From Arcobacter cloacae (GTDB lineage: Bacteria > Campylobacterota > Campylobacteria > Campylobacterales > Arcobacteraceae): a stretch of 64,000 nucleotides of DNA. The stretch spans positions 1,860,001-1,924,000 of the forward strand of contig NZ_CP053833.1 in assembly GCF_013201935.1 (NCBI RefSeq). The letters run 5' to 3'. Below the pieces are notes generated by a model. It was not told where the DNA came from, searched no databases, and saw only the letters and a list, made by a program, of their open reading frames with translations. How positions within the stretch are numbered: the stretch's first letter is position 1; every line of letters begins with the position of its first letter. Both the position numbers and the translations under genes were made by a program. This document shows, piece after piece, positions 45,023-60,166 of this stretch.

Positions 45023-45419
45023 GGGGATGACTTGGTATCGATTAGAGCAGTGAGTATAAGTTGCATGTCGGCCTGAACATGCCGTTACGCGGTTCATTTT
45101 TTTTAGACGCAAACAATACAAATTACGCTCCAGCTTACGCAAAAGCTGCGTAAGTTTAACAACTTACTGACTCGCCTAACGGCTTGAGTCTTTGGAGGCT
45201 GGCACTACAGATTCTATCTATGTAGATAATTGCTGGTTCACCCTAGATAGATTATCTTTGAGGAGTTGATTGAAACTCAAAGAGAAATTTTAAATCTTAG
45301 CTTTATGATTGCTTCGGGAGTTGAGCTGTTGTAAAGTGAAATTTTTCAACTCTGCTAAGCATGTAGACGCTTATATGATCTGTTTTAAGACTGCGGTTCG
45401 ATCCCGCACATCTCCACCA
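45023..45419 (+). ncRNA. ssrA: tmRNA
   Basis: Rescues stalled ribosomes. The 5' end GGGGATG pairs with CATCTCC just before ACCA at the 3' end (7-bp acceptor stem with one G-U), and GGTTCGATCCCGC forms the T-arm. The resume frame near 45106 encodes ANNTNYAPAYAKAA then TAA, a typical Campylobacterota-type proteolysis tag. Pseudoknot-like pairs lie in between (GGCCTGAACATGCC; TCGCCTAACGGCTTGAG). Length 397 bases with an encoded CCA. The 3' end is the probable target of the downstream integrase. Confidence 0.97.
45395..45419 (+). other. Probable attachment site (attL) in the 3' end of ssrA
   Basis: The T-arm and acceptor end of tmRNA is a classic target of P4-type integrases, and such an integrase starts 165 bases downstream, reading away from ssrA. 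The sequence would be retained as the crossover copy. I found no second copy of the last 15-25 bases anywhere to 64000, so attR must lie beyond the window or be degenerate. Confidence 0.6.
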
Positions 45420-45584: not shown

Positions 45585-46862
45585 ATGCCAAAAGTCGTAA
45601 AACCTCTTACTGATAAAGAAATTAAAAATACTAAATATACATCCAAAGAAGAATTTGAGCAATTAAAAAAAATTGCTAAACTAAACAATAATCCTGAACC
45701 AAAACTCAATAATAAATTATCTGATGGACAAGGTCTTTATTTAATTATAAAAGAAAATGGTACAAAATTTTTTCAATATGACTTTACTTTTGAAAATAAA
45801 AGAAAATCTATGAGCTTTGGTGTTTATCCTGAAACATCATTAAGTGAAGCTAGAATTTTAAGAGAAAAAACTAAAGAACTTTTAAAACAAAAAATAAATC
45901 CTATTATCGACAAAAATATTTCAAGTATAAACAGTGATAATACTTTCAAAAGTATTTCTGAAAAATGGTTATCTAAAATGAAAAATGAATGGGGAAATTC
46001 TACTTTAAAAAAAGTTGTAAGTGTAATAGAGAATCATGCTTATCCCTACATTGGAAATAAGCCTATTGAAAATATAATAAGAACTGATATTTTAAATATT
46101 CTAGATAGAATGAATAAAAAAGAATTATTTGGAAGTGCTGAAAAACTTATTTCAAATATCAATAGAATATATAAATTTGCTGTTACTTACAATTATGTTG
46201 AACACAATATTATTGCAGATATTGACAAAAAGAATGTAATTGTTTCAACTAGACATAATCACTATTCAGCAATTACAAATGAAGATGAAGTAAAAGAACT
46301 AATAAGTGATATTCAATCTTTTGAAGATTTATTTAAAGCAGATATAACAACTATAATTGCTTTAAAATTAGCTCCATTAGTTGCATTAAGACCTTTTAAT
46401 TTGTGTTCACTTGAATGGAGTGAAATAAACTTTGAAAAGAAATACTTAGATATTCCAGAAAGTAAAATGAAAACTAAAAAAGATTTTGTTTTACCATTAT
46501 CAAAACAAGCAATTGAGATTCTAAAATCTATTGAACCATTTTCAGCTCACAAAAGTAAATATGTATTTCCCTCTCCTACTTCTAATCTTAAGAATATAAA
46601 TAATGCAACAATAAATCATGCACTAAAAAAACTAGGCTACAAAGATAGACATTGCAATCATGGATTTAGAAGTACATTTTCTACAATTTGCCATGAAAAA
46701 GTAAAAGAACATGGATTTAGTAGTGACATTATAGAATCTTGCTTAGCTCATGAAGAACAAAATCAAGTTAAAGCTTCTTATAATAGAAGCTCTAAAATGA
46801 AATATTTTGATGAGAAAAGAGAGTTAATGCAATGGTGGGCTGATTGGTTAAATAATCTATAA
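45585..46862 (+). CDS. P4-type tyrosine recombinase (island integrase)
   Basis: 425 residues. N-terminal arm-binding DUF4102-like domain (LSDGQGLYLIIKENGTKFFQYDFTFENKRKSMSFGVYP), a SAM-like core-binding domain (about 120-215), then the catalytic domain with R269 in ALRPFNLCSLEW, H359/R362 in NHGFRSTFST, H389 in LAHE and nucleophile Y399 in KASYNR. All catalytic residues are present, so it is likely active. Oriented away from ssrA and 165 bases from it, the usual arrangement for integrases using tmRNA as target. Confidence 0.95.
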   Translation: MPKVVKPLTDKEIKNTKYTSKEEFEQLKKIAKLNNNPEPKLNNKLSDGQGLYLIIKENGTKFFQYDFTFENKRKSMSFGVYPETSLSEARILREKTKELLKQKINPIIDKNISSINSDNTFKSISEKWLSKMKNEWGNSTLKKVVSVIENHAYPYIGNKPIENIIRTDILNILDRMNKKELFGSAEKLISNINRIYKFAVTYNYVEHNIIADIDKKNVIVSTRHNHYSAITNEDEVKELISDIQSFEDLFKADITTIIALKLAPLVALRPFNLCSLEWSEINFEKKYLDIPESKMKTKKDFVLPLSKQAIEILKSIEPFSAHKSKYVFPSPTSNLKNINNATINHALKKLGYKDRHCNHGFRSTFSTICHEKVKEHGFSSDIIESCLAHEEQNQVKASYNRSSKMKYFDEKRELMQWWADWLNNL

Positions 46863-46943: not shown

Positions 46944-48257
46944 TTATAATAAAACATGACATTTCTTGTATTTTTTACCACTACCACAAAAACAAGAATC
47001 ATTTCTTGATATTTTCCTTGTTCTATCTTTTTCTAAAGATAATTTATTAGCTCGCTTAATTAATACTTCTACTAGGTCTTTTGAATTTAAATCTATTCTT
47101 TTCATTTCATTATATTGAACTTTTGCATGTTCATGTAAACCCATGTTTTCAGAAAGAAAATTTCCATAACCAAATCTAGCTTCAAAGAAATCAGCTTTTA
47201 AAGATATTGCTTTTTCATAAAGTTGACATATTTTTTCATTATTTTCTTTACTTCTTGGCTGTGACTTATAATAATTAGTTAAATTAGAATATGCTCTATA
47301 TTCTGTAGGGTCATAAGAGATAATTTTTTCATATTGTTCTTTTGCCTTTTCATAATCATTAAAATGTCCTGAAAATAACACACCTAAATTTAATCTAGCT
47401 TGATTTAATTCGGGAGAAAGTTCAATAGCTTTTTCAAATAATTCTTTTGCTTTTTCAAGGTCTTCCTTTAATTGCAATAATAAAAAGCCATAATTATTTA
47501 ATGATACAAAATTTTTATTATTTAATTCTATTGATTTCTCATAATTATATTTTGCTTTAGGGATGTTTTTTCTATCTTCTGCAATTGATGCTCTTATCCC
47601 ATAAGCTTCTGAAACAGGTTTATTTTCATCAAACCATTTGTCTAACATTGCTTCTTTTTTATCAATATCTTCTTGTAATGCTATTGCTAATAATGAAATA
47701 TAATGAGAAACATCTACTCCACCTAATGATTCTAAAATGGACTTATAATTTTCATTTTTAAGTTCATCAAATTTTATATTCTTTATATCACTAATATATG
47801 ATAGAAATTCATTTATAGTTGAAGCTATATTTTCGATTGCTTTTAATTCTTCAATTTCTTTTATAATAGATGTTGCAGGGAAAGAAGATATTAAAGCTTC
47901 TAATTTTTGTTTTTCATTCTGCCAGTAAGTGGTATATCCTAATCTACCCTCTGAAGTATATATTGAAACCTTATCCACTATAATAGGTAATATTTTATCT
48001 TTAAAATCTTTTTCTTTTAAAATATGTAAAACTTCTTTCATACAATTTTTTGATTTCAAATAACTATCACTTATTAAGATTAATGCAAAATCTGAATTTC
48101 TAATTTCTTCCATAAAACTAGATATACTTGATTTATAATCAATATCGTGAACATCTCTTTTAAAATTAAATTGAACTAGTTCTAAATCTTTTTCAATTTC
48201 ATTTGCTATTTCCATATTTTTCCATGAATATGAAATAAATATATTTTTCTTATTCAT
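46944..48257 (-). CDS. TIR domain - TPR - SEC-C protein
   Basis: 437 residues. The TIR domain (1-150) begins KNIFISYSWKNMEIANEIEKDL and includes SDSYLKSKNCMKEVLHIL, where E75 sits in the S-x-x-C-x-x-E position used by NAD-cleaving TIR enzymes. Residues about 200-390 are TPR repeats (PKAKYNYEKSIELNNKN; EKAKELFEKAIELSPELNQ; EKAKEQYEKIISYDPTE). The last 25 residues form a SEC-C zinc finger (RNDSCFCGSGKKYKKCH). The start overlaps the P1 stop by 8 bases, so it is translated with the precursors. It could be an NAD-consuming effector, or a TIR scaffold; sequence favours the former. Confidence 0.88.
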   Translation of the reverse strand: MNKKNIFISYSWKNMEIANEIEKDLELVQFNFKRDVHDIDYKSSISSFMEEIRNSDFALILISDSYLKSKNCMKEVLHILKEKDFKDKILPIIVDKVSIYTSEGRLGYTTYWQNEKQKLEALISSFPATSIIKEIEELKAIENIASTINEFLSYISDIKNIKFDELKNENYKSILESLGGVDVSHYISLLAIALQEDIDKKEAMLDKWFDENKPVSEAYGIRASIAEDRKNIPKAKYNYEKSIELNNKNFVSLNNYGFLLLQLKEDLEKAKELFEKAIELSPELNQARLNLGVLFSGHFNDYEKAKEQYEKIISYDPTEYRAYSNLTNYYKSQPRSKENNEKICQLYEKAISLKADFFEARFGYGNFLSENMGLHEHAKVQYNEMKRIDLNSKDLVEVLIKRANKLSLEKDRTRKISRNDSCFCGSGKKYKKCHVLL

Positions 48258-48441
48258 TTATAAAAATACCATTATCATAGTCACTATCTTCAATAGTCCT
48301 AGTATTTGTTGTTCCAATTGATTCAATTATAAAATTATCAGTATCTGTATCTTCCATAGTTTTTGTTATAGTTCTTCCATATATCTCTAAATCTTTTTCT
48401 AAATTATTTTCAAAAATAGAAAGAAATGGTTTATTGTTCAT
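48250..48441 (-). CDS. Graspetide precursor P1
   Basis: 63 residues from the ATG at 48441, chosen because MNNKPFLSIFEN then aligns with the starts of the other three precursors; a TTG at 48459 would add six residues. Leader KPFLSIFE resembles the PFFARFL recognition helix of microviridin leaders. Two cores: A, GRTITKTMEDTDTDN, and B, GTTNTRTIEDSDYDN, 21 residues apart. Both fit G-x3-T-x-[TS]-x-E-x2-D-x-D, and both also have Thr six before the Glu. The start overlaps P2 by 11 bases. Confidence 0.8.
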   Translation of the reverse strand: MNNKPFLSIFENNLEKDLEIYGRTITKTMEDTDTDNFIIESIGTTNTRTIEDSDYDNGIFINE

Positions 48442-48640
48442 TATTATATACTTTATCAATTTGGAATAGATTGTCTAAATCTGCATCTTCTAGTGTATTT
48501 GTATACTTTTTCCCTCCAACATCAAAGTTAAGACTAATATCACAATCTGTAACCTCTACTGAATCTGTAAAAGTTCTACCATCAATAGAAATATTATTTT
48601 TAAAGCTCATCTCATAAGATGATAAATAAGGTTTCTTCAT
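48431..48640 (-). CDS. Graspetide precursor P2
   Basis: 69 residues, ATG preceded by AAGGA. Leader MKKPYLSSYEMS. Core A is GRTFTDSVEVTDCDI (Ser replaces one Thr; Val follows Glu) and core B is GKKYTNTLEDADLDN, 22 residues apart. The C-terminal tail (LFQIDKVYNNEQ) is longer than in its paralogues. It starts 5 bases after the P3 stop. Confidence 0.8.
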   Translation of the reverse strand: MKKPYLSSYEMSFKNNISIDGRTFTDSVEVTDCDISLNFDVGGKKYTNTLEDADLDNLFQIDKVYNNEQ

Positions 48641-48645
48641 ACTTT

Positions 48646-48825
48646 TTATTCCTTAATTAAATTATTATCATAATCACTGCCTTCAACTGTTGCTGTACTT
48701 GCCATTCCAAAATCCATAATTATAATATCATTATCTGTATCTTCTATAGTTTCAGTAATTGTTTTTCCATTACAGTTTGATTCATAATTTATCACTTCAT
48801 AGTCTGATAAATAAGGTTTTTTCAT
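48646..48825 (-). CDS. Graspetide precursor P3 (short, easily missed)
   Basis: 59 residues, below the usual cut-off for gene calling. Leader MKKPYLSDYEVIN is identical to P2 and P4 through residue 7. Core A is GKTITETIEDTDND and core B is GMASTATVEGSDYDN, 20 residues apart. GAGGAG precedes its ATG, which overlaps the P4 stop (ATGA). Conservation of the leader and of both cores shows it is a real gene. Confidence 0.82.
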   Translation of the reverse strand: MKKPYLSDYEVINYESNCNGKTITETIEDTDNDIIIMDFGMASTATVEGSDYDNNLIKE

Positions 48826-49022
48826 TTATGTAACTCCTCATTAATAAAATTATTAGGGTCAGTATCTTCTTTAGTAAAAGTATACATTGTTCCTGATACA
48901 ATAATTTGACAATCATAATCTGTATCTTCTAATGATTCAGTATCAGTTCCACCATGAAGTTCTTGATTTTTCTTTAACTGATTAGATTCAATTTCATAAA
49001 ATGAAAGATAAGGCTTTTTCAT
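48822..49022 (-). CDS. Graspetide precursor P4
   Basis: 66 residues. Leader MKKPYLSFYEIES, then a lysine/glutamine linker, core A GGTDTESLEDTDYDC (Ser at the second nucleophile position) and core B GTMYTFTKEDTDPNN (Asn in place of the final Asp). AGGAG precedes the ATG, which overlaps the stop of the upstream membrane-protein gene by four bases. First of the four paralogues in transcription order. Confidence 0.82.
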   Translation of the reverse strand: MKKPYLSFYEIESNQLKKNQELHGGTDTESLEDTDYDCQIIVSGTMYTFTKEDTDPNNFINEELHK

Positions 49023-49867
49023 AAATTACTCCTAAATAAATAAAAACATATAAGAATTGTTGAAAAAATAAGATTCTTAACTAAATAAAACTCTATATTT
49101 TTTATATAACCTATACTTTTCCAAGATTCATAAGAATACCATTTTGAATTCAAATAATAATATTTTAATCTCTTTTTACTTATTTCATCTGAAGTAAAAT
49201 CTTCAAATGTTTCTTTATAAGAACCTTTAACAGTTATAAAATGAATATTAATCAATACAAAATTAATAAAAAGTAGAACTAAATACCAAAATAAAATTTG
49301 CATTAAGATATGTTTTTGAATTGAATCAAGATATAATGATTCTATATTATTTATTTGTGAAAATATTACGGAAGTTATAGCTGCTAATATTGTTATATAA
49401 AAAGTAGCTTTGATAGAAGCAAGATTTTTTGTTTCTTTATATGATTGAATTTCATCTTTTAAAACTTCAACTTGTTTAGATTTTTTTTGATTATTCAAAC
49501 TTTCAACTTCGTTCAAAGTTTTTTCTTTTATAGAAAGAAATTGTTTTTTTGTCACACTTTCATAAGAAATTATTTTAATAAAATTAAATTCTAAATCTTT
49601 TAAAGAGAAAATATAAACTTTATATTGACCAAAAGGAATAAAAAATAAAGAGTATCTATACTTCCCTTTTTCTGATAAATTGATATCTAAATCCATAGTA
49701 TGAAACCTACTATCATCAGATATTTGTAAAAATGGTATATCGGCAATTATATATTTTTTTATAAATTTACAAATTGAATGATTGCATTCATAAATAAATA
49801 GTAACACTATAAGGTATATAGTAAAAATTAATATAAATAAAATGCTATTATAAAATAAGCTATCCAT
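49019..49867 (-). CDS. Membrane protein between graspetide ligase and precursors, function unknown
   Basis: 282 residues. N-terminal helix at about 6-27 (LFILIFTIYLIVLLFIYEC), a roughly 120-residue soluble domain with beta-rich stretch (KGKYRYSLFFIPFGQYKVYIFSL), a coiled coil (EKTLNEVESLNNQKKSKQVE), two further helices at about 150-170 and 185-210, and one near the C-terminus (NLIFSTILICFYLF). No ABC, MFS or protease motif. It overlaps the ligase by 8 bases and P4 by 4. It could export, anchor or sense the peptides; that is inferred from position alone. Confidence 0.6.
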   Translation of the reverse strand: MDSLFYNSILFILIFTIYLIVLLFIYECNHSICKFIKKYIIADIPFLQISDDSRFHTMDLDINLSEKGKYRYSLFFIPFGQYKVYIFSLKDLEFNFIKIISYESVTKKQFLSIKEKTLNEVESLNNQKKSKQVEVLKDEIQSYKETKNLASIKATFYITILAAITSVIFSQINNIESLYLDSIQKHILMQILFWYLVLLFINFVLINIHFITVKGSYKETFEDFTSDEISKKRLKYYYLNSKWYSYESWKSIGYIKNIEFYLVKNLIFSTILICFYLFRSNL

Positions 49868-50756
49868 TCAAATATTCCAATATTTTATTTGATATATCTA
49901 AATTTAATTCATTTTCAAGCCATAACCATTGTCCATTAGGATTACATTCTAGAAAATAATATTGATTATTTTTTACCATATAATCAAAAGCTCCAAAAAT
50001 TAATCCTGTATACTCTAAAAATTCAATACATTCTTTTTTTACAATATCTGGTGTATCAACTAATGTATATTTAACGGACATATCATCTCTCCAATCAACT
50101 TTACTAGAATCAATTCTTACACAATAAAAGAATCCATTAATGTATGTAACTCTTAATTCATAATCCTTTTCAATTTTAGATTGAAAATAAGTAGGACTAA
50201 ACTCTATGTTATTTACTTTTGATGTTAACACATTTGTTAGAATCTTTTTATTTTCTGTAATTTTGCCCATAGACAAAGGTTTTACAATCCACTTATTTAG
50301 CTCTAGCTTATTATTTATGTAGTTTTCATCATTTGTTATAATACTTTTTGGTATTAAAAAGTTAAATTTTTTAGCCAAATGCAACTGATAAACTTTATTT
50401 TCAACTTGTCTAAGTAAAGATGGTTTAGATAAAACTTTCCCATCAAAAGAATCTGCTAGCCCAACTATGAAATTATAAATTTCTTTATGCATAAAATTTC
50501 TATAATTTTCATCATAATCTAGTAAATCAGGCAAAAATATTTTTCTGAAATAAATAGATTTTATACTCTCAAATAGATTGATTAATTTAAAATCATATTC
50601 ATAAAAAATACCATCATCTGTGATTGAGATTTTATATTTATTAATATTATCTAAATTAATTCTAATAAAGAAATATTTACTTTTATATTTATCAATAAGA
50701 ATATCTACAGTTTTATCAAAAGAAGAGGTAATAATCAATATAAACTTTTTTTCCAT
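49860..50756 (-). CDS. Graspetide-type ATP-grasp ligase (MvdC/MvdD-like)
   Basis: 298 residues. Enzymes of this family activate Asp/Glu side chains with ATP and join them to Thr/Ser (ester) or Lys (amide) in a precursor peptide. Family features in order: FILIITSSFDKTVDIL, IYFRK (69-72), ENKVYQLHLAKKFNFLIPKS with N120/K121/Q124, IVKPL (K159), YFQSKIEKDYELRVTYI (R202), VDWRDD (221-225), GAFDYM and FLECNPNGQWLWL (E270, N272, N274, Q276, W277). DWR and NPNGQW are hallmarks of graspetide ligases as opposed to RimK or glutathione synthetase. It shares one base with the TPR gene. Confidence 0.92.
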   Translation of the reverse strand: MEKKFILIITSSFDKTVDILIDKYKSKYFFIRINLDNINKYKISITDDGIFYEYDFKLINLFESIKSIYFRKIFLPDLLDYDENYRNFMHKEIYNFIVGLADSFDGKVLSKPSLLRQVENKVYQLHLAKKFNFLIPKSIITNDENYINNKLELNKWIVKPLSMGKITENKKILTNVLTSKVNNIEFSPTYFQSKIEKDYELRVTYINGFFYCVRIDSSKVDWRDDMSVKYTLVDTPDIVKKECIEFLEYTGLIFGAFDYMVKNNQYYFLECNPNGQWLWLENELNLDISNKILEYLNG

Positions 50757-53700
50757 TATTTACTTAATAACCTTTTCTTATCATTATTTTCTAGTATTTG
50801 TAAAATAAATTCTATATTCATATCAAAATTATTTTCAACTGGTAAATTTACTTTAAGATATTTACCACCAAATTTATTGAAATAATATCTTTTAATTTCT
50901 TTTAACCATCCATAATTATCCATGATTCTAATCAGTTCACATTCTTTTTTTACTAATTGAGAAATATCATTTTTCTTCATAAAATCAATAAGATTTAACA
51001 CATCTTGCTCAGATAAAACATATTTATACTTTTTTGAAAACAAACTAATTTTTAAATCTCTTAATTCATCATAACTTAATATATTTCCAAGTAGTGCTAA
51101 AGAATTACTTATAAAAACTTTATTGTACTTGAACACATCAAACATCATATTATATATTGTATCTTCTGTAATAATTTGAAATTTTTTATTGATTGCAAAA
51201 GAAAAAGCTTGAAATTCTTGACTACCTATATGTTTTGCTAATATTTCATATGAACCTTTTATTGGTAAAATTTCCAAATGGTCATCAATTATTCTCTCAG
51301 CACAATTTTCAAGAATTAATTTTATTAATTTTTGAATTGATATTTTAAACTCTTCAATTTCTTCTTTTGTATTACCATAAAATACAGGTTTAGAATTTTC
51401 TATGTAATCAAATTTTATTGGCATTTTTGTTACATCTAAAGATATTAAATATTCTCTTAACCAATTAATTAGTGTTCTTTGTATAAATACATCTTTTCTT
51501 TCTAATACTTTTTCTAAATATCCAATATGATTCAAAAAAACAATAGATGAAAATGTTAAAATTGTATTAATAGATTCTTCTTTGTAATGTATTTTTCCTG
51601 CATTAAAATTATGTATATTACTTTTAAGTAAAAAAGGTATCAACTCAAAATAATTTTTATAATTACTTTGAGACAAAGGAAATAATCCAATTTCTTTGCC
51701 ATCACTATATCTTTGAAATAAATCTTTTGTATTATCTGTTTGATTTTTCATAAATTTAAATAAATCTTCTAGTGGTTCTTTTTTTGTTTCATCAATTGTT
51801 ATTGGTATGAACATAGGATTATCACATCTAAAAGCAAAAGGACCAACTATTCTATGAAAAAGAGAACTTTTTACAAAATTATCATCCGAAATTTTTAAAA
51901 AGAAATCATTATCATCTATTATTCTAAAACCATAATTTTTTTGATTTTCTTCTAAAATATTATAATTATCTTTTACATAAGTTATGCCATCTTTTTCAAG
52001 ACATAAATTATCATTACATAAAAAAATACATTGATAATTTGTTTTATTAAATTCAGTTTGCATAAAAATATTAGATAAATTAATTTTTAAATTTTTATCT
52101 AATTTATTAATATCTTGTTCTAAAAGCTTTTGATTTAATATTGGTAAAATATTTGAAGCACTTTGCAATAATGTAATTTCATAACCTAATAAAAATAATA
52201 AGTTCTGAATCTCAAAATTATAAACTTCACCAAGTATAGAAGTAAACACTTCTTTTTGTTTTTGGTATTCAAACTTTTCACCTGAATTTGAATAGATAAA
52301 ATGTGCAGTATTTAATACTTCAAACATTGCATTAATATTTTTACTATTTTTATATTCATTATAAAAATAGTTAAAAGCAATATTCAACTTATTATATTTA
52401 GAATAAATTCTTCCTAATATAAAATTCAAGTTATCTTTATTTTGTATTTGTTCTACAAATTGATGAAATGTATCAAATAATAAATCTTTATCATTTTCAC
52501 AAATTTTTAAAGTTTTATATATAATTCCTTCAAATTCATTTTCTTTAAATAAAGCTAATTGTAGATATTCAGTCCGTCTAACTCTTAATAAAAATTTTAT
52601 TGCATCTATCAATCGAGGATAAATACAGTCATTACAAAATTCTAACAACTTGTTTATATCTTTAGAATCAATTTGTTTACTTAAATATAATTGATATTCC
52701 ATATAAGCTAATAATGAATCTATCCCTTTATGTTTATTTTCTTCTAAATATTTTTCGACAGAAATATCAAGTTTTTTATTTGTTGAAATATATCCTGATA
52801 CAAAACAATACAGAACAAATGCATTCTCATATATATAATTTTCATTATTGTTTAAAAAATTTATTACTTGTTTTATTTCCTCTATACTCTTGTTTTTTAC
52901 GAATGAACAATATATTAGCAAATCTTGTAAATCAAATTTTGATTTTAAATGTTCTTGTATATCTGCATGTGAACAGACAATATTTTTTACTTCACAATAT
53001 TGAAAATAATTTCTTATTGGCAATTGTTCTTTATATTGTCCATATATCTCAAAATATTTTTCTTGTTTATCTAAAATTAATAAAATATTTATATAACTTT
53101 CCACTAAACTAAAAATATATTCTTCGCTAAAATATTCTTTATTTCCAAAAATATTGATTAGAAAGTTTTCATATTCTCTTAAAACTTCAAAATCTACACA
53201 ACTTTTCTTCATTAAAAAATGATTTATATTATCCGTTCCATAAAATGTTTGAATAATAAATTTATCAAGATAATTTATTTCACTTTCTTCTAATGCTTTT
53301 TTATAATAGTAGTCTGCTTTTTCAAAACTTTCTTCATCTCCATATTTGTACAATATTGAATAAATATGTCCACCTAATAAATAAAGTTGTTTTTCATAGT
53401 CTTTATTTTTTATTTCTTCATCAAAAATTTCTTTTGCTTTTTGCAAATCCCCACTATTCATATAAAAAACTAAATCAAAATGTCCCTGAGGTTTGCTGTT
53501 TGGTGTATCTATTCTTAATTGTCTAGAAAGCTCAAAAAAAGATATATCTTGTTTCATTGAAAGTAATGTTAATTTTAATTCTTTTAATTTATTATCATGA
53601 TAAGGTTTATAATCATCACTTCTTTCTATAAAAATTAAATTTTCTTCAAATTCTTCATAACATCTAAATTGTCGTAAGAAATCAATTTTTAATAAAAGTA

Positions 53701-53905
53701 AATAATACTTATTTTGTTTGATTTTTTCATTTTCTATTATTAATTTATCTAAAAAAATTATTGCTTCTTCAAATTTGCCTTCATTAAAATCATTTGTTAT
53801 GTGTTCAATAGAAGCTTGGATTTTAGCATTAACTGTAATATTGTTAATTTGTGTATTATTTCCTACTTGAAAAAAATTTTTTATTAAATTAATCATCTGA
53901 TTCAT
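50756..53905 (-). CDS. Large TPR-rich protein, possible C-terminal PIN-like segment, function unknown
   Basis: 1049 residues, mostly helical repeats (NEGKFEEAIIFLDKLIIENEK; FEKADYYYKKALEESE; YNKLNIAFNYFYNEYKN). The N-terminus carries VGNNTQINNITVNAKIQ, an alternating N/Q/hydrophobic stretch like those found at the start of many bacterial multidomain TPR/STAND proteins. Near 900-960, AKHIGSQEFQAFSFAINKKFQIITEDTIYNMMFD faintly resembles a PIN nuclease core; weak evidence. No Walker motif. It ends one base into the ATP-grasp start, so it is an integral part of the graspetide operon. No homologue in known graspetide clusters comes to mind. Confidence 0.7.
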   Translation of the reverse strand: MNQMINLIKNFFQVGNNTQINNITVNAKIQASIEHITNDFNEGKFEEAIIFLDKLIIENEKIKQNKYYLLLLKIDFLRQFRCYEEFEENLIFIERSDDYKPYHDNKLKELKLTLLSMKQDISFFELSRQLRIDTPNSKPQGHFDLVFYMNSGDLQKAKEIFDEEIKNKDYEKQLYLLGGHIYSILYKYGDEESFEKADYYYKKALEESEINYLDKFIIQTFYGTDNINHFLMKKSCVDFEVLREYENFLINIFGNKEYFSEEYIFSLVESYINILLILDKQEKYFEIYGQYKEQLPIRNYFQYCEVKNIVCSHADIQEHLKSKFDLQDLLIYCSFVKNKSIEEIKQVINFLNNNENYIYENAFVLYCFVSGYISTNKKLDISVEKYLEENKHKGIDSLLAYMEYQLYLSKQIDSKDINKLLEFCNDCIYPRLIDAIKFLLRVRRTEYLQLALFKENEFEGIIYKTLKICENDKDLLFDTFHQFVEQIQNKDNLNFILGRIYSKYNKLNIAFNYFYNEYKNSKNINAMFEVLNTAHFIYSNSGEKFEYQKQKEVFTSILGEVYNFEIQNLLFLLGYEITLLQSASNILPILNQKLLEQDINKLDKNLKINLSNIFMQTEFNKTNYQCIFLCNDNLCLEKDGITYVKDNYNILEENQKNYGFRIIDDNDFFLKISDDNFVKSSLFHRIVGPFAFRCDNPMFIPITIDETKKEPLEDLFKFMKNQTDNTKDLFQRYSDGKEIGLFPLSQSNYKNYFELIPFLLKSNIHNFNAGKIHYKEESINTILTFSSIVFLNHIGYLEKVLERKDVFIQRTLINWLREYLISLDVTKMPIKFDYIENSKPVFYGNTKEEIEEFKISIQKLIKLILENCAERIIDDHLEILPIKGSYEILAKHIGSQEFQAFSFAINKKFQIITEDTIYNMMFDVFKYNKVFISNSLALLGNILSYDELRDLKISLFSKKYKYVLSEQDVLNLIDFMKKNDISQLVKKECELIRIMDNYGWLKEIKRYYFNKFGGKYLKVNLPVENNFDMNIEFILQILENNDKKRLLSK

Positions 53906-54089
53906 TATTCATACTATTTTTTTGTTCAGTATTACCTAATTTAAAAAAAGAACTATCACTATTTTCCTGTCTATTTGATTTATCAATTTTTACACTAATT
54001 TTATAAACTTTATTGGCAACAAATACTGTGATTATTAAACCTATAATACTTGCCCAACTTCCTATATCTGATAATGAAATATTTTCCAA
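53889..54089 (-). CDS. Small single-pass membrane protein, first gene of the graspetide operon
   Basis: 66 residues with a TTG start six bases after AGGAG. One transmembrane helix at about 10-30 (GSWASIIGLIITVFVANKVYKI), then a polar Asn/Ser/Asp-rich tail. It overlaps the TPR gene by 17 bases. No known family recognised. It could anchor the TPR protein to the membrane, an inference from coupling only. Confidence 0.6.
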   Translation of the reverse strand: MENISLSDIGSWASIIGLIITVFVANKVYKISVKIDKSNRQENSDSSFFKLGNTEQKNSMNNESDD

Positions 54090-54257: not shown

Positions 54258-54755
54258 TTAATCCAATATATTATTTACATCATTTATTGTATTATCAAAA
54301 TTTTTTTCTATATTATTCATTTCAAATCTATAATGTTCATTTATCGCATTTTTATATAACACATAATAAATAATTATACATAAAACAAAAATAATACTAG
54401 AACAAAGGGAATAAATAGAAATTAATAATGCTATACTTAAAATAAAACTAATAACTGATATGAAAAATATGATAGCATATTTTGATTCATTAAACCATTT
54501 TAGAAAAGCTCTTCCATTTTCTAAATCTTTACTACTTGAAAAAATAAATGCACTTGCTGTATTTGAGACTAAACTAATTGAAAAAGTTATAATACAAAGT
54601 GTGGAAATTTTTGATTCCATGAATACTTGTTCCGCACCAATTAAAGCTATAAAAAAAGTCATTGAAACTACTGTTAATGCACTGTAAATCAAAAATTGAT
54701 GTTCTGTAAAACTTTTGCTACTTAATAATGAATTTTTAAGTTCTTCTGTTGTCAT
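54258..54755 (-). CDS. Four-helix membrane protein, function unknown
   Basis: 165 residues with about four transmembrane helices (near 24-42, 50-70, 93-112, 115-135) between charged ends (MTTEELKNSLLSSKSFTEHQ and NNIEKNFDNTINDVNNILD). No family recognised. It lies in the same direction upstream of the graspetide operon but is separated from it by 168 bases, so probably an independent unit. Confidence 0.65.
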   Translation of the reverse strand: MTTEELKNSLLSSKSFTEHQFLIYSALTVVSMTFFIALIGAEQVFMESKISTLCIITFSISLVSNTASAFIFSSSKDLENGRAFLKWFNESKYAIIFFISVISFILSIALLISIYSLCSSIIFVLCIIIYYVLYKNAINEHYRFEMNNIEKNFDNTINDVNNILD

Positions 54756-54841
54756 ATCCTTACACTCCTCTAATAATTTTAATATTATTTTATACTCTAA
54801 ATTTAAAATAAATATTGTAACATTTTTATAGAAATAGTTAT

Positions 54842-56104
54842 TTACTCATTTTTCTTTTTTTTGATTATTTCAAAATAATTACTTTTCAGCTCATCTTTTA
54901 TTTTATAATCAATGTTTCTTATTAATTTTAATTTTTCTTTTGATAAAACATCTTTTAAATAATATGAATAAATTTCTGAAAATGGCATTTCTCTTGAATC
55001 GTATTCATCGTTATTAAATTTAATGAATTTTTTCATTAATTCTTCATCAATATATTTTTTATCGTAATAATATGTATATGTATTATCATAACCAATTAAT
55101 AATACATCTTTTTCATCAATATTTAATTCTTTTATTTTGACAAAAGCTGGAAATTTTGAAAACTCAAAATATTTTTCTATAATCTTTCCTGTAAGATTCA
55201 AATTATTTTTTATGTTTGCTTCAGAAACAATAGAAAATAAAGGTGTAAAAATTAATAATGTTAAAAGAAACACCGTAAAGATAGAATATATAAGAAAATT
55301 AATATCATAAAAAATTGCTTTTATATTTGCTTTCATATTTAAAGAAATTTTCATCAATTCTATCTTTGTATGTAAATTATTTTCATTACAAAAAATAATT
55401 TTTTCTAATATTAATTTACAACTAATGAAAAAGAACATAAAAAAGTTTAAAAGAAATATTGATAATAAAGAAAATAATATTAGAATTAATAAGATTGAAC
55501 CAATTTTTAGGAAGAAATCTTCATAAAAATATAAAATAATACTGTTTGAAATACTAAGATTATTTAATAAATTATCTACAAAACCATAATTATCAATTAA
55601 TTTATTTATTATATTTATTTGCAATAATGAAAAAGATAATGAGAAAATTAAAATTATCGTAGAAATAATTTCTAATTTATTATTTAAAATAAAATTCTTA
55701 CTTTTGCCTATTTCTGGATTATAAAATATTTTAATTAAATTTGATAATAGTCCTTCTTTTTCTTTAATTATAGGTAAAACAGAAATTAAAAAATAATATT
55801 CTTCTAGAACTTCTTTGTTTTCTATACCTATAATATTAAAATTAATTTCATCAGATTTAAAATGTTTAGTAAAAACTCTAGTTTCTAATATTTTGTCATT
55901 TCTTTTATTTAATATAACTACAAATATAGAGTAATACTCATAATCACTAATTTCATTAATTTTAAATACTTCATTATTGAATTTCAAATCATATATATCG
56001 TGTACCATAATTTTAGAAGAATTATTAATAATGTAATCCATATCAATTTTTATAAATAATTCTCTATTTCTTTTTAGATAAGTTTGTATTTCTAGATTAT
56101 TCAT
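54842..56104 (-). CDS. Multi-pass membrane protein, function unknown
   Basis: 420 residues. A soluble N-terminal domain of about 145 residues precedes four hydrophobic segments (about 152-170, 200-235, 270-300) and a charged C-terminal domain with LIGYDNTYTYYYDKKYIDEELMK. The coding is very A+T rich. I do not recognise the family. It sits with the 165-residue membrane protein in the same direction, with 86 bases between. Confidence 0.6.
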   Translation of the reverse strand: MNNLEIQTYLKRNRELFIKIDMDYIINNSSKIMVHDIYDLKFNNEVFKINEISDYEYYSIFVVILNKRNDKILETRVFTKHFKSDEINFNIIGIENKEVLEEYYFLISVLPIIKEKEGLLSNLIKIFYNPEIGKSKNFILNNKLEIISTIILIFSLSFSLLQINIINKLIDNYGFVDNLLNNLSISNSIILYFYEDFFLKIGSILLILILFSLLSIFLLNFFMFFFISCKLILEKIIFCNENNLHTKIELMKISLNMKANIKAIFYDINFLIYSIFTVFLLTLLIFTPLFSIVSEANIKNNLNLTGKIIEKYFEFSKFPAFVKIKELNIDEKDVLLIGYDNTYTYYYDKKYIDEELMKKFIKFNNDEYDSREMPFSEIYSYYLKDVLSKEKLKLIRNIDYKIKDELKSNYFEIIKKKKNE

Positions 56105-57818: not shown

Positions 57819-59330
57819 ATGATTAGTATGGAGGATTGGGTAACTATTCGTAATCTAAAAAAGAAAGATCCAAACTTAGGAACTAGAACAATTGCTTTAA
57901 TGTTAGGTATTAGTAGAAATACTGTAAAAAAAGCATTATTAAATGATGAATTACCTTTATATAACAGAGGTGAGAAAAAAATAAATGAAGCAGTTGAACC
58001 ATTTATTGATTTTATCAAAGAGTCATTTTTAAAGAAAAATTTAAAAGCTAGTAGAATTTTAAAAGATATAAAATCAAAAGGATATAGAGGAAGTCAATAT
58101 GCTTTATATGCTTACATAAGAGAAATTTTAAAACCAATAGCAAACGATGTAAGTAAAAATTCACCTCATGCTTACATGAGATATGAAACAAAACCAGCTG
58201 AACAGATGCAATATGATTGGAGTCCATATACAGTTACTATTGGTGAAAATCTTGTAAAAATAAATATACATCAAACAATCTTAGGATTTAGTAGATATAA
58301 ATTTTATGATGTAAGTTTAAATGTATCAGGAAGTGATGTATATACAGCATTAGAAGAGAGTTTTATCTTCTTTGGAGGAGTTTGTGAAAGAATACAAGTT
58401 GATAATGCAACAGTATTTATAACAAATGCTTCTAAAGATAATCTTATTTGGAATCCAAGATTTTTATCATTGTGTGGATTGTATGGAATAAAACCAACAA
58501 GAAGTATGCCATCACATCCATGGAGTAAAGGTAAAGTTGAATCACCTTTTAGTTATCTTGAAACACATTTTATTAGTGGTAATGAATTTAAAAGCTTTGA
58601 AGATTTAAGAGAACGATTAAAACAATTTCAAGATGAGCATAATTTAGAGATTCATGGCACAACTAAACAAATTTCAAAAATACTCTTTGAAAAAGAGGAA
58701 CAAAGTTTTTTAAAACCACTACCAATAAATCCAATAACTGGGGAATTAAAACGATATGTTGGATTTAAAGAAGAGTTTAGAAAGGCAAATTCTGAATGTT
58801 TAGTCTCTTACAAAGGTAATAAATATTCAGTTCCACATTACTTTGCAAGTAAAGAGGTTTGGTTAAGAGTATTATATGGAACAACTTTGCAAATATACTC
58901 AAGTAAAAATAAACTAATAGCAACTCATACAATTAGCCTTAAAAAAGGTGAAGTCCTTGTTAATAAAGAGCATTTCAATGGATATAGAAAAGAAAATCAG
59001 TTTGATTCAATTGCAATTTCAATATCAAGACTTATAAAAAGATTTGCTAACTACATAAATATTCATAAATTCATTGAAAATATTAAAGTTCAAAAAAGAA
59101 TTAGCCCAGCTTATCACCTTTATAAAATAGCAAACTTGTTTGAATACTACGATGAGGCTGATTGTATTATGGCAATGGAAGAAGCAATTAGTTTAAATAT
59201 TTATAGCTTCTCTTTTATCAAAGGAACAATTACACATCAAACCAAGCCAAAAAATGAACAGTTAAATCTGTTTAATATCAAATTACCCCAAGCAAATATA
59301 AAAAGAGATTTAGGAGATTATAAAATATGA
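57819..59330 (+). CDS. istA: IS21-family transposase IstA
   Basis: 503 residues. N-terminal helix-turn-helix (LGTRTIALMLGISRNTVKKAL), then an RNase-H DDE core: D in MQYDWSPYTVTI, D in RIQVDNATVFIT, and E in WSKGKVESPFSYLETHF. The C-terminal beta-rich and helical regions are typical of IstA. AAAGGAG precedes the start. The stop overlaps istB (ATGA). All catalytic acids are present, so it is probably functional. Confidence 0.95.
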   Translation: MISMEDWVTIRNLKKKDPNLGTRTIALMLGISRNTVKKALLNDELPLYNRGEKKINEAVEPFIDFIKESFLKKNLKASRILKDIKSKGYRGSQYALYAYIREILKPIANDVSKNSPHAYMRYETKPAEQMQYDWSPYTVTIGENLVKINIHQTILGFSRYKFYDVSLNVSGSDVYTALEESFIFFGGVCERIQVDNATVFITNASKDNLIWNPRFLSLCGLYGIKPTRSMPSHPWSKGKVESPFSYLETHFISGNEFKSFEDLRERLKQFQDEHNLEIHGTTKQISKILFEKEEQSFLKPLPINPITGELKRYVGFKEEFRKANSECLVSYKGNKYSVPHYFASKEVWLRVLYGTTLQIYSSKNKLIATHTISLKKGEVLVNKEHFNGYRKENQFDSIAISISRLIKRFANYINIHKFIENIKVQKRISPAYHLYKIANLFEYYDEADCIMAMEEAISLNIYSFSFIKGTITHQTKPKNEQLNLFNIKLPQANIKRDLGDYKI

Positions 59331-60166
59331 GAAATAAAAATACTACAAACTTAAGAAACAGTGGACCAGTTAATTTAGAGAATGGTTCACTAAAAGCAAA
59401 TATAGAGAGTTATTGTAAACTTTTATCTCTTTCATCAGTGGCAGATAATTATGAAAGTGCAGCACTTGATGCTGCTAAAGCAAAACTATCATATCAAGAT
59501 TATCTGTATAAACTATTGCAACAACAAATAGTTGATAGAGTAGATAGAAGTGTAAATGCTAGAATTAAAAAAGCAGGATTCAAATATATGGCAACTTTGG
59601 ATGAGTTTGATTTTAGCTTTCAACCTCAAATAGATGAAAAACTAATACGAGAATTAGCAACTCTAAGCTTTTTAGATAGTGCTACAAATGTACTTTTAGT
59701 TGGTGCTCCAGGAGTTGGAAAAACTCATCTTTCAATAGCATTAGGACTTGAAGCCACCAAACAAAGAAGAAGAGTAAAATTTATAAGTGCTGAAGATTTA
59801 ACCAATGAACTAATAGCTGCAAATCACTCTAATACTATAACAGATTATCTTGAAAGTATGAGTAGAATAGAGTTACTAATAATTGATGAAATTGGATACT
59901 TAGACCTTTCAAGAGAAGTAGCATCACTTTTTTTTAGACTTATTTCAAAGAGATATGAAAAATCTTCAACAATAATTACATCAAATAAAGAATTTCAAGA
60001 ATGGGGACAGATATTTAATGATGATGTGATAGCAACAGCAATACTAGATAGACTTTTACATCATTCACATCCATTTTTAATAAATGGTCCAAGTTATAGA
60101 ATGAAAGATTTATTGCCAAAAAGTAAAAAGAAACAAAATTTAGAGAATAAAAATAACGAAATTTAA
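59327..60166 (+). CDS. istB: IS21-family ATP-binding transposition helper IstB
   Basis: 279 residues, DnaC-like AAA+ ATPase that selects target DNA and activates IstA. Walker A VGAPGVGKTHLSIAL, Walker B LLIIDEIGYLDL, sensor ITSNKEFQEWG, and C-terminal DRLLHHSHPFLINGPSYRMKDL. Coupled to istA by a four-base overlap. It ends a few bases before the right terminal repeat. Confidence 0.95.
   Translation: MRNKNTTNLRNSGPVNLENGSLKANIESYCKLLSLSSVADNYESAALDAAKAKLSYQDYLYKLLQQQIVDRVDRSVNARIKKAGFKYMATLDEFDFSFQPQIDEKLIRELATLSFLDSATNVLLVGAPGVGKTHLSIALGLEATKQRRRVKFISAEDLTNELIAANHSNTITDYLESMSRIELLIIDEIGYLDLSREVASLFFRLISKRYEKSSTIITSNKEFQEWGQIFNDDVIATAILDRLLHHSHPFLINGPSYRMKDLLPKSKKKQNLENKNNEI

Follow-up and report, generated by a model that had tools for sequence, protein, structure and literature searches.

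At the head of a graspetide operon in the window (the whole 64,000-nucleotide stretch of DNA analysed here), overlapping genes encode a 66-residue single-pass membrane protein and a 1049-residue protein, with matching short motifs at the tail of the small protein and the head of the large one. We put at roughly 0.55 the probability that the two form a portable, membrane-tethered sensor/scaffold module of defence, coupled through these tags and independent of the neighbouring ATP-grasp ligase.

Read along the minus strand, the operon runs from the 66-aa membrane protein through the 1049-aa TPR protein, the ATP-grasp ligase, a 282-aa membrane protein and four precursors to a TIR-TPR-SEC-C protein (Table 1); between 54089 and 46944 neighbouring genes overlap or almost touch, and are therefore probably carried on a single transcript. 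The stop codon of the large gene shares one base with the start of the ligase (TAATG; stop TAA, ligase ATG), and its 5' end overlaps the small gene by 17 bp; both reading frames and both overlaps stand as the first-pass annotation gave them. There is an 8-bp overlap between the last precursor gene and the gene for the TIR + TPR + SEC-C protein at the far end of the operon. With a TIR effector placed after its graspetide precursors, this arrangement may in its own right be a conflict system of an unusual kind.

The island holding the operon adjoins a tmRNA gene (45023-45419), whose tag (ANNTNYAPAYAKAA) is of the Campylobacterota type, and an integrase (45585-46862). Two membrane proteins of 165 and 420 aa, both without a family match, are encoded upstream of the operon (54258-56104, minus strand), and an IS21-type transposase pair, istA/istB-like by eye, lies in the same island (57819-60166, plus strand).

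Table 1. Features of the operon (positions are those of the window)
Feature	Position	Strand	Remarks
Small single-pass membrane protein, 66 aa	53889..54089	-	TTG start, AAGGAG upstream
TPR protein, 1049 aa, helical-repeat, N-terminal motif KNFFQVGNNTQINN	50756..53905	-	C-terminal degenerate PIN-TPR-GreABC-like domain
N-terminal motif of TPR protein, residues ~10-26	53828..53878	-	Matches tail of 66-aa protein
Degenerate PIN-like domain of TPR protein, residues ~776-936	51098..51580	-	PF20698 match and alignment
MvdC/MvdD-like ATP-grasp ligase	49860..50756	-	NCBIfam TIGR04185 3.9e-42, TIGR04187 4.2e-42
282-aa membrane protein of ligase cassette	49019..49867	-	39% identical to counterpart after G442 ligase
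Four graspetide-type precursor peptides	48250..49022	-	Leader M..P[YF]LS..[YF]E, repeats like T.[ST].ED[TS]D.D
TIR + TPR + SEC-C protein, operon end	46944..48257	-	Pfam TIR_2 2.6e-16, TPR, SEC-C 8.8e-8

Matched motifs at the tail of the small protein and the head of the large

The 66-aa protein begins with a hydrophobic stretch (residues ~6-24), followed by Lys/Arg and then by a tail carrying SSFFKLGNTEQKN. A corresponding small ORF is found at the same place in five other genomes, and this conservation of the pair shows both frames to be real genes. Indeed, at every TPR locus with an intact 5' end (6/6) a small membrane ORF overlaps the start of the large gene, by 17 bp in the window, 26 bp in G078 and G413, 4 bp in G192 and G587 and 1 bp in G583. 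The products, 52-66 residues long, follow one plan: an N-terminal hydrophobic helix, then basic residues, then a tail similar to the N-terminus of the TPR protein. All are simple one-helix anchors of no recognised family, with no Bell/HeLo domain.

Setting tail against head (small protein/TPR protein), we see SSFFKLGNTEQKN/NFFQVGNNTQINN in the window, SSFIKIGDTEQSN/TWFQIGNNTQNN in G587 and SIIKVGDTKQEN/LLHIGNTIQTN in G583, and in G192 a stretch of 15 identical residues, KLSSFFNFGSIKQEN, in both proteins. The core may be written as [IVL]G[ND][TN]xQxN, a G/N/Q-rich pattern that we take to resemble RHIM/PP-like motifs. The tags are Asn/Lys-rich, and the controls were of like composition; the summed tail/head local alignment score is 270, as against a mean of 137 and a maximum of 188 over 2000 shuffles. 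In five of the six pairs the head of the TPR protein outscores every other 40-residue segment tested of its own protein, the exception being G413 (36 for tail/head, 38 for another segment of the same protein). The true tail/head pairing is the best of 720, with one tie, the related loci being non-independent and G192 contributing most; and when 157 adjacent same-strand gene pairs on the same contigs were ranked, the four tail/head pairs known at that stage took places 1, 3, 4 and 6, with two duplicated precursor genes in second place. At the level of DNA, the two G192 tags are nearly identical, with two synonymous differences in the shared block, which indicates recent copying. The tags of the window retain the protein motif on diverged codons.

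Bacterial amyloid signalling pairs (BASS; Bell effectors/NLR receptors) are recognised through similar C-terminal and N-terminal motifs in neighbouring genes (PMC8086366); among their motifs, BASS3 shares homology with RHIM and the fungal PP motif (PMC12261475). Here too the genes are adjacent, with one matched motif C-terminal in the upstream product and the other N-terminal in the larger partner; unlike the BASS pairs, this one has no Bell domain and no NLR-type NTPase receptor (no ATPase/NTPase family is matched by the TPR protein in Pfam, NCBIfam or PADLOC), and its partner is TPR/PIN-like.

Following this parallel to its end, the small protein could be a killing effector: its tail motif would be templated by the TPR protein upon infection, the small proteins would polymerise, and the inner membrane would be permeabilised. 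Bell/HeLo-type effectors are thought to permeabilise the membrane likewise with NLR receptors. The resemblance of the tag core to RHIM/PP-like motifs suits such a scheme, as does a geometry shared with the known pairs, with the effector motif C-terminal and that of the neighbouring receptor N-terminal (PMC8086366); set against these, anchors of a single helix without a Bell/HeLo domain, and a receptor without an NTPase, make the scheme doubtful, and we favour a version in which the motif tethers over one in which the receptor templates an effector.

The pair and the graspetide ligase as separate modules

Searching 104 genomes of the taxonomic family, together with samples of 397 (phylum) and 389 (order), we found the TPR family in seven further genomes of the phylum, its members 26-48% identical to the window protein (G442 48%, G583 46%, G587 44%, G078 and G040 30%, G413 28%, G192 26%). 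The G040 member is a contig-end fragment and that of G583 is split over two contigs; in G442 there is a remnant of the gene, frameshifted and internally deleted, at a contig end (L018:9399-9919). Searches for homologues among viral, plasmid and genome contigs returned one Arcobacter contig and no other.

For the ligase, we searched the genome sets of the family and phylum, and also six of the TPR hosts directly, with a positive control included. None is detectable in those six, and in the seventh, G442, the ligase and the broken TPR gene lie on different contigs, such that the window is the only one of the eight genomes with the TPR family in which the two genes stand side by side. The first-pass annotation had proposed that the TPR protein may define the graspetide system, and had itself named a gene found mostly without the ligase as the outcome that would speak against this; with six genomes lacking the ligase and one having it unlinked, that is what we see, and the proposal fails. 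The protein does not co-occur with the ATP-grasp ligase across genomes as a graspetide component should, and the ligase is a module separate from the TPR pair.

Approached from the side of the ligase, no TPR gene adjoins its relatives in G442, G029, G318, G361 or G430, the last four of which have precursor-like ORFs; the G442 enzyme begins ~240 bp past an unrelated gene. The window shares with MvdC/MvdD-type graspetide clusters a neighbouring ligase, precursors and a membrane protein, whereas the related clusters examined do not have the TPR pair as a component.

Several of these loci have features of their own. The nearest relative of the ligase cassette (G442, L026:2848-4926; ligase 65% and membrane protein 39% identical) has a 109-aa precursor in which T..SLED[ST]D occurs four times and the repeats of the window precursors recur, and then a DUF2971 gene. 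At the G029 locus (L008:2850-10851), a diverged ligase is accompanied by a 268-aa membrane protein and a 70-aa precursor-like ORF; beside them is an operon of four genes, one of them for an SMC-like protein of 1232 aa. The order and sizes of the genes in this operon recall Wadjet/MksBEFG. In G446 (L030:9148-10048) and G178 (L023), the ligase homologue is split into separate frames, with stops within the match.

It might still be argued that in this lineage the TPR protein has become a dedicated partner of the ligase, binding leaders and delivering precursors to the membrane, a role that the TAATG overlap and the apparent single transcript would allow; given six genomes that have the family without the ligase, a seventh in which they are unlinked, and a 65%-identical ligase in G442 without an adjacent TPR gene, we think this unlikely.

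In G413 (hsdM, hsdS, pair, DUF6088/AbiEii, hsdR) and G192 (EcoEI-type R, AAA_21, RloB, pair, hsdS, hsdM) the pair is embedded in a type I R-M operon; in G078 its neighbours are an integrase gene and DNA methylase genes, and in G587 and G583 it is solitary, with ordinary genes around it. The TPR gene of G040 adjoins a Schlafen-type SLFN_AlbA_2/HATPase gene. From this pattern we infer a mobile accessory of defence, the link to defence coming from the neighbourhood in a minority of the loci. In G413 and G192, where it lies between hsd genes (and in G192 next to RloB), the pair is like the rlo-type accessory genes of epsilonproteobacterial type I R-M loci; unlike these, it also occurs without any R-M genes and is not of a Pfam-recognised Rlo family.

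The C-terminal domain of the large protein

Compared directly with Pfam, NCBIfam, PADLOC, PHROGs and PDB sequences, the window TPR protein gives nothing above chance. Matches to repeat models are weak, both for the window protein (Pfam TPR_2, E 0.17) and for its relatives (TPR_19, E 0.022; PPR, E 0.0036); of the first-pass description, the 1049-aa frame and the N-terminal GNNTQINNITVN are sound and the TPR identity is weakly backed. Its remaining suggestions, that the protein has no ATPase motif, has a PIN-like segment and recalls multidomain conflict proteins, agree with what we find: no ATPase family is matched, a distant match to PF20698 lies at the C-terminus, and we retain the conflict-type multidomain reading.

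The PF20698 matches (E 7.6e-4 in G078, 1.7e-3 in G040, 0.038 in G587 and 0.11 for a fragment of the window protein) all fall under the 27.8-bit cut-off; they span nearly the whole model, and in several members they fall on the same part of the protein, with none in the G413 and G192 proteins. PF20698 matches in G273 were rejected as family members, being ordinary PIN toxins. Where the DUF3368-like PINs (L031/L032) carry DSSALVAL, the seven-sequence alignment has LTFSSIVFL; the first PIN Asp is Phe/Leu in all seven members (Phe785 in the window) and the motif-2 Glu is Trp/Tyr in six of the seven (Trp815), so that, with those PINs as reference, most of the catalytic acids expected of a PF20698 member are lacking. 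Glu897 and Glu914-Asp915 are retained in the window; Glu897 and the motif-4 Glu/Asp are retained in most members, the motif-4 Asp being Asn in G587 and G583. Profile comparison with the DUF3368-like PINs was not significant, with just 32 columns aligned, in the same register, and AlphaFold with two-row alignments gave unusable models (pLDDT 36 and 43). With moderate confidence, and judging by the alignment, we read the domain as a probable inactive pseudo-PIN.

With the first Asp and the motif-2 Glu replaced as described and the motif-4 Asp lost in two members, it is highly improbable that the TPR protein works as a PIN RNase, with the small protein as its membrane-bound regulator or localiser, even if the PF20698 match and the acids retained in most members would accord with it.

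The known system closest to the large protein is PIN-TPR-GreABC (PF20698, the TPR-GreAB-C-PIN system), in which a long protein of helical repeats likewise has a PIN-type domain at its C-terminus. The window family differs in falling under the curated cut-off, in the loss of the catalytic Asp/Glu, in having no detected GreAB-C domain (no GreA/GreB model matched between repeats and PIN, a region that is strongly diverged) and possibly in pairing with a motif-bearing membrane protein.

A tether/scaffold model and its meaning

In the model that we favour, the small protein would sit in the inner membrane with its tail facing the cytosol, and the short motif that this tail shares with the large protein's N-terminus would bind the two together, possibly as a cross-beta, RHIM-like assembly; by analogy with the known pairs, the tags would hold the solenoid to the small membrane protein. 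Binding of the tags may thus tether or recruit the large alpha-solenoid, a putative sensor/scaffold, to the membrane, and the C-terminal PIN-like domain, its catalytic acids lost, probably binds RNA or a partner instead of cutting. The module may be an accessory of defence loci that, in the window island, would have become the head of an operon also holding a graspetide cassette and a TIR effector.

A broader claim, which we offer tentatively as a possibility suggested by sequence, is of an immune module that has not been described before and has no NTPase. In it, matched amyloid motifs of a RHIM-like kind would connect a minimal membrane protein of one helix to a giant TPR/pseudo-PIN sensor, and the module would move between R-M loci, a graspetide/TIR operon and solitary sites. 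Both the PIN-TPR-GreABC family and matched-motif signalling are already known; in the searchable literature, itself incomplete, we found no account of the two combined in a system that has a minimal membrane anchor and no NTPase. Novelty with respect to the original TPR-GreAB-C-PIN description is uncertain, the literature search having found no open paper on that system.

If the reading is right, matched-motif signalling in bacteria would extend beyond NTPase receptors, and the pair would be a small two-gene system whose tag specificity is directly testable. The separation of ligase and TPR protein into two modules, for its part, redirects the search for the function of the peptides.
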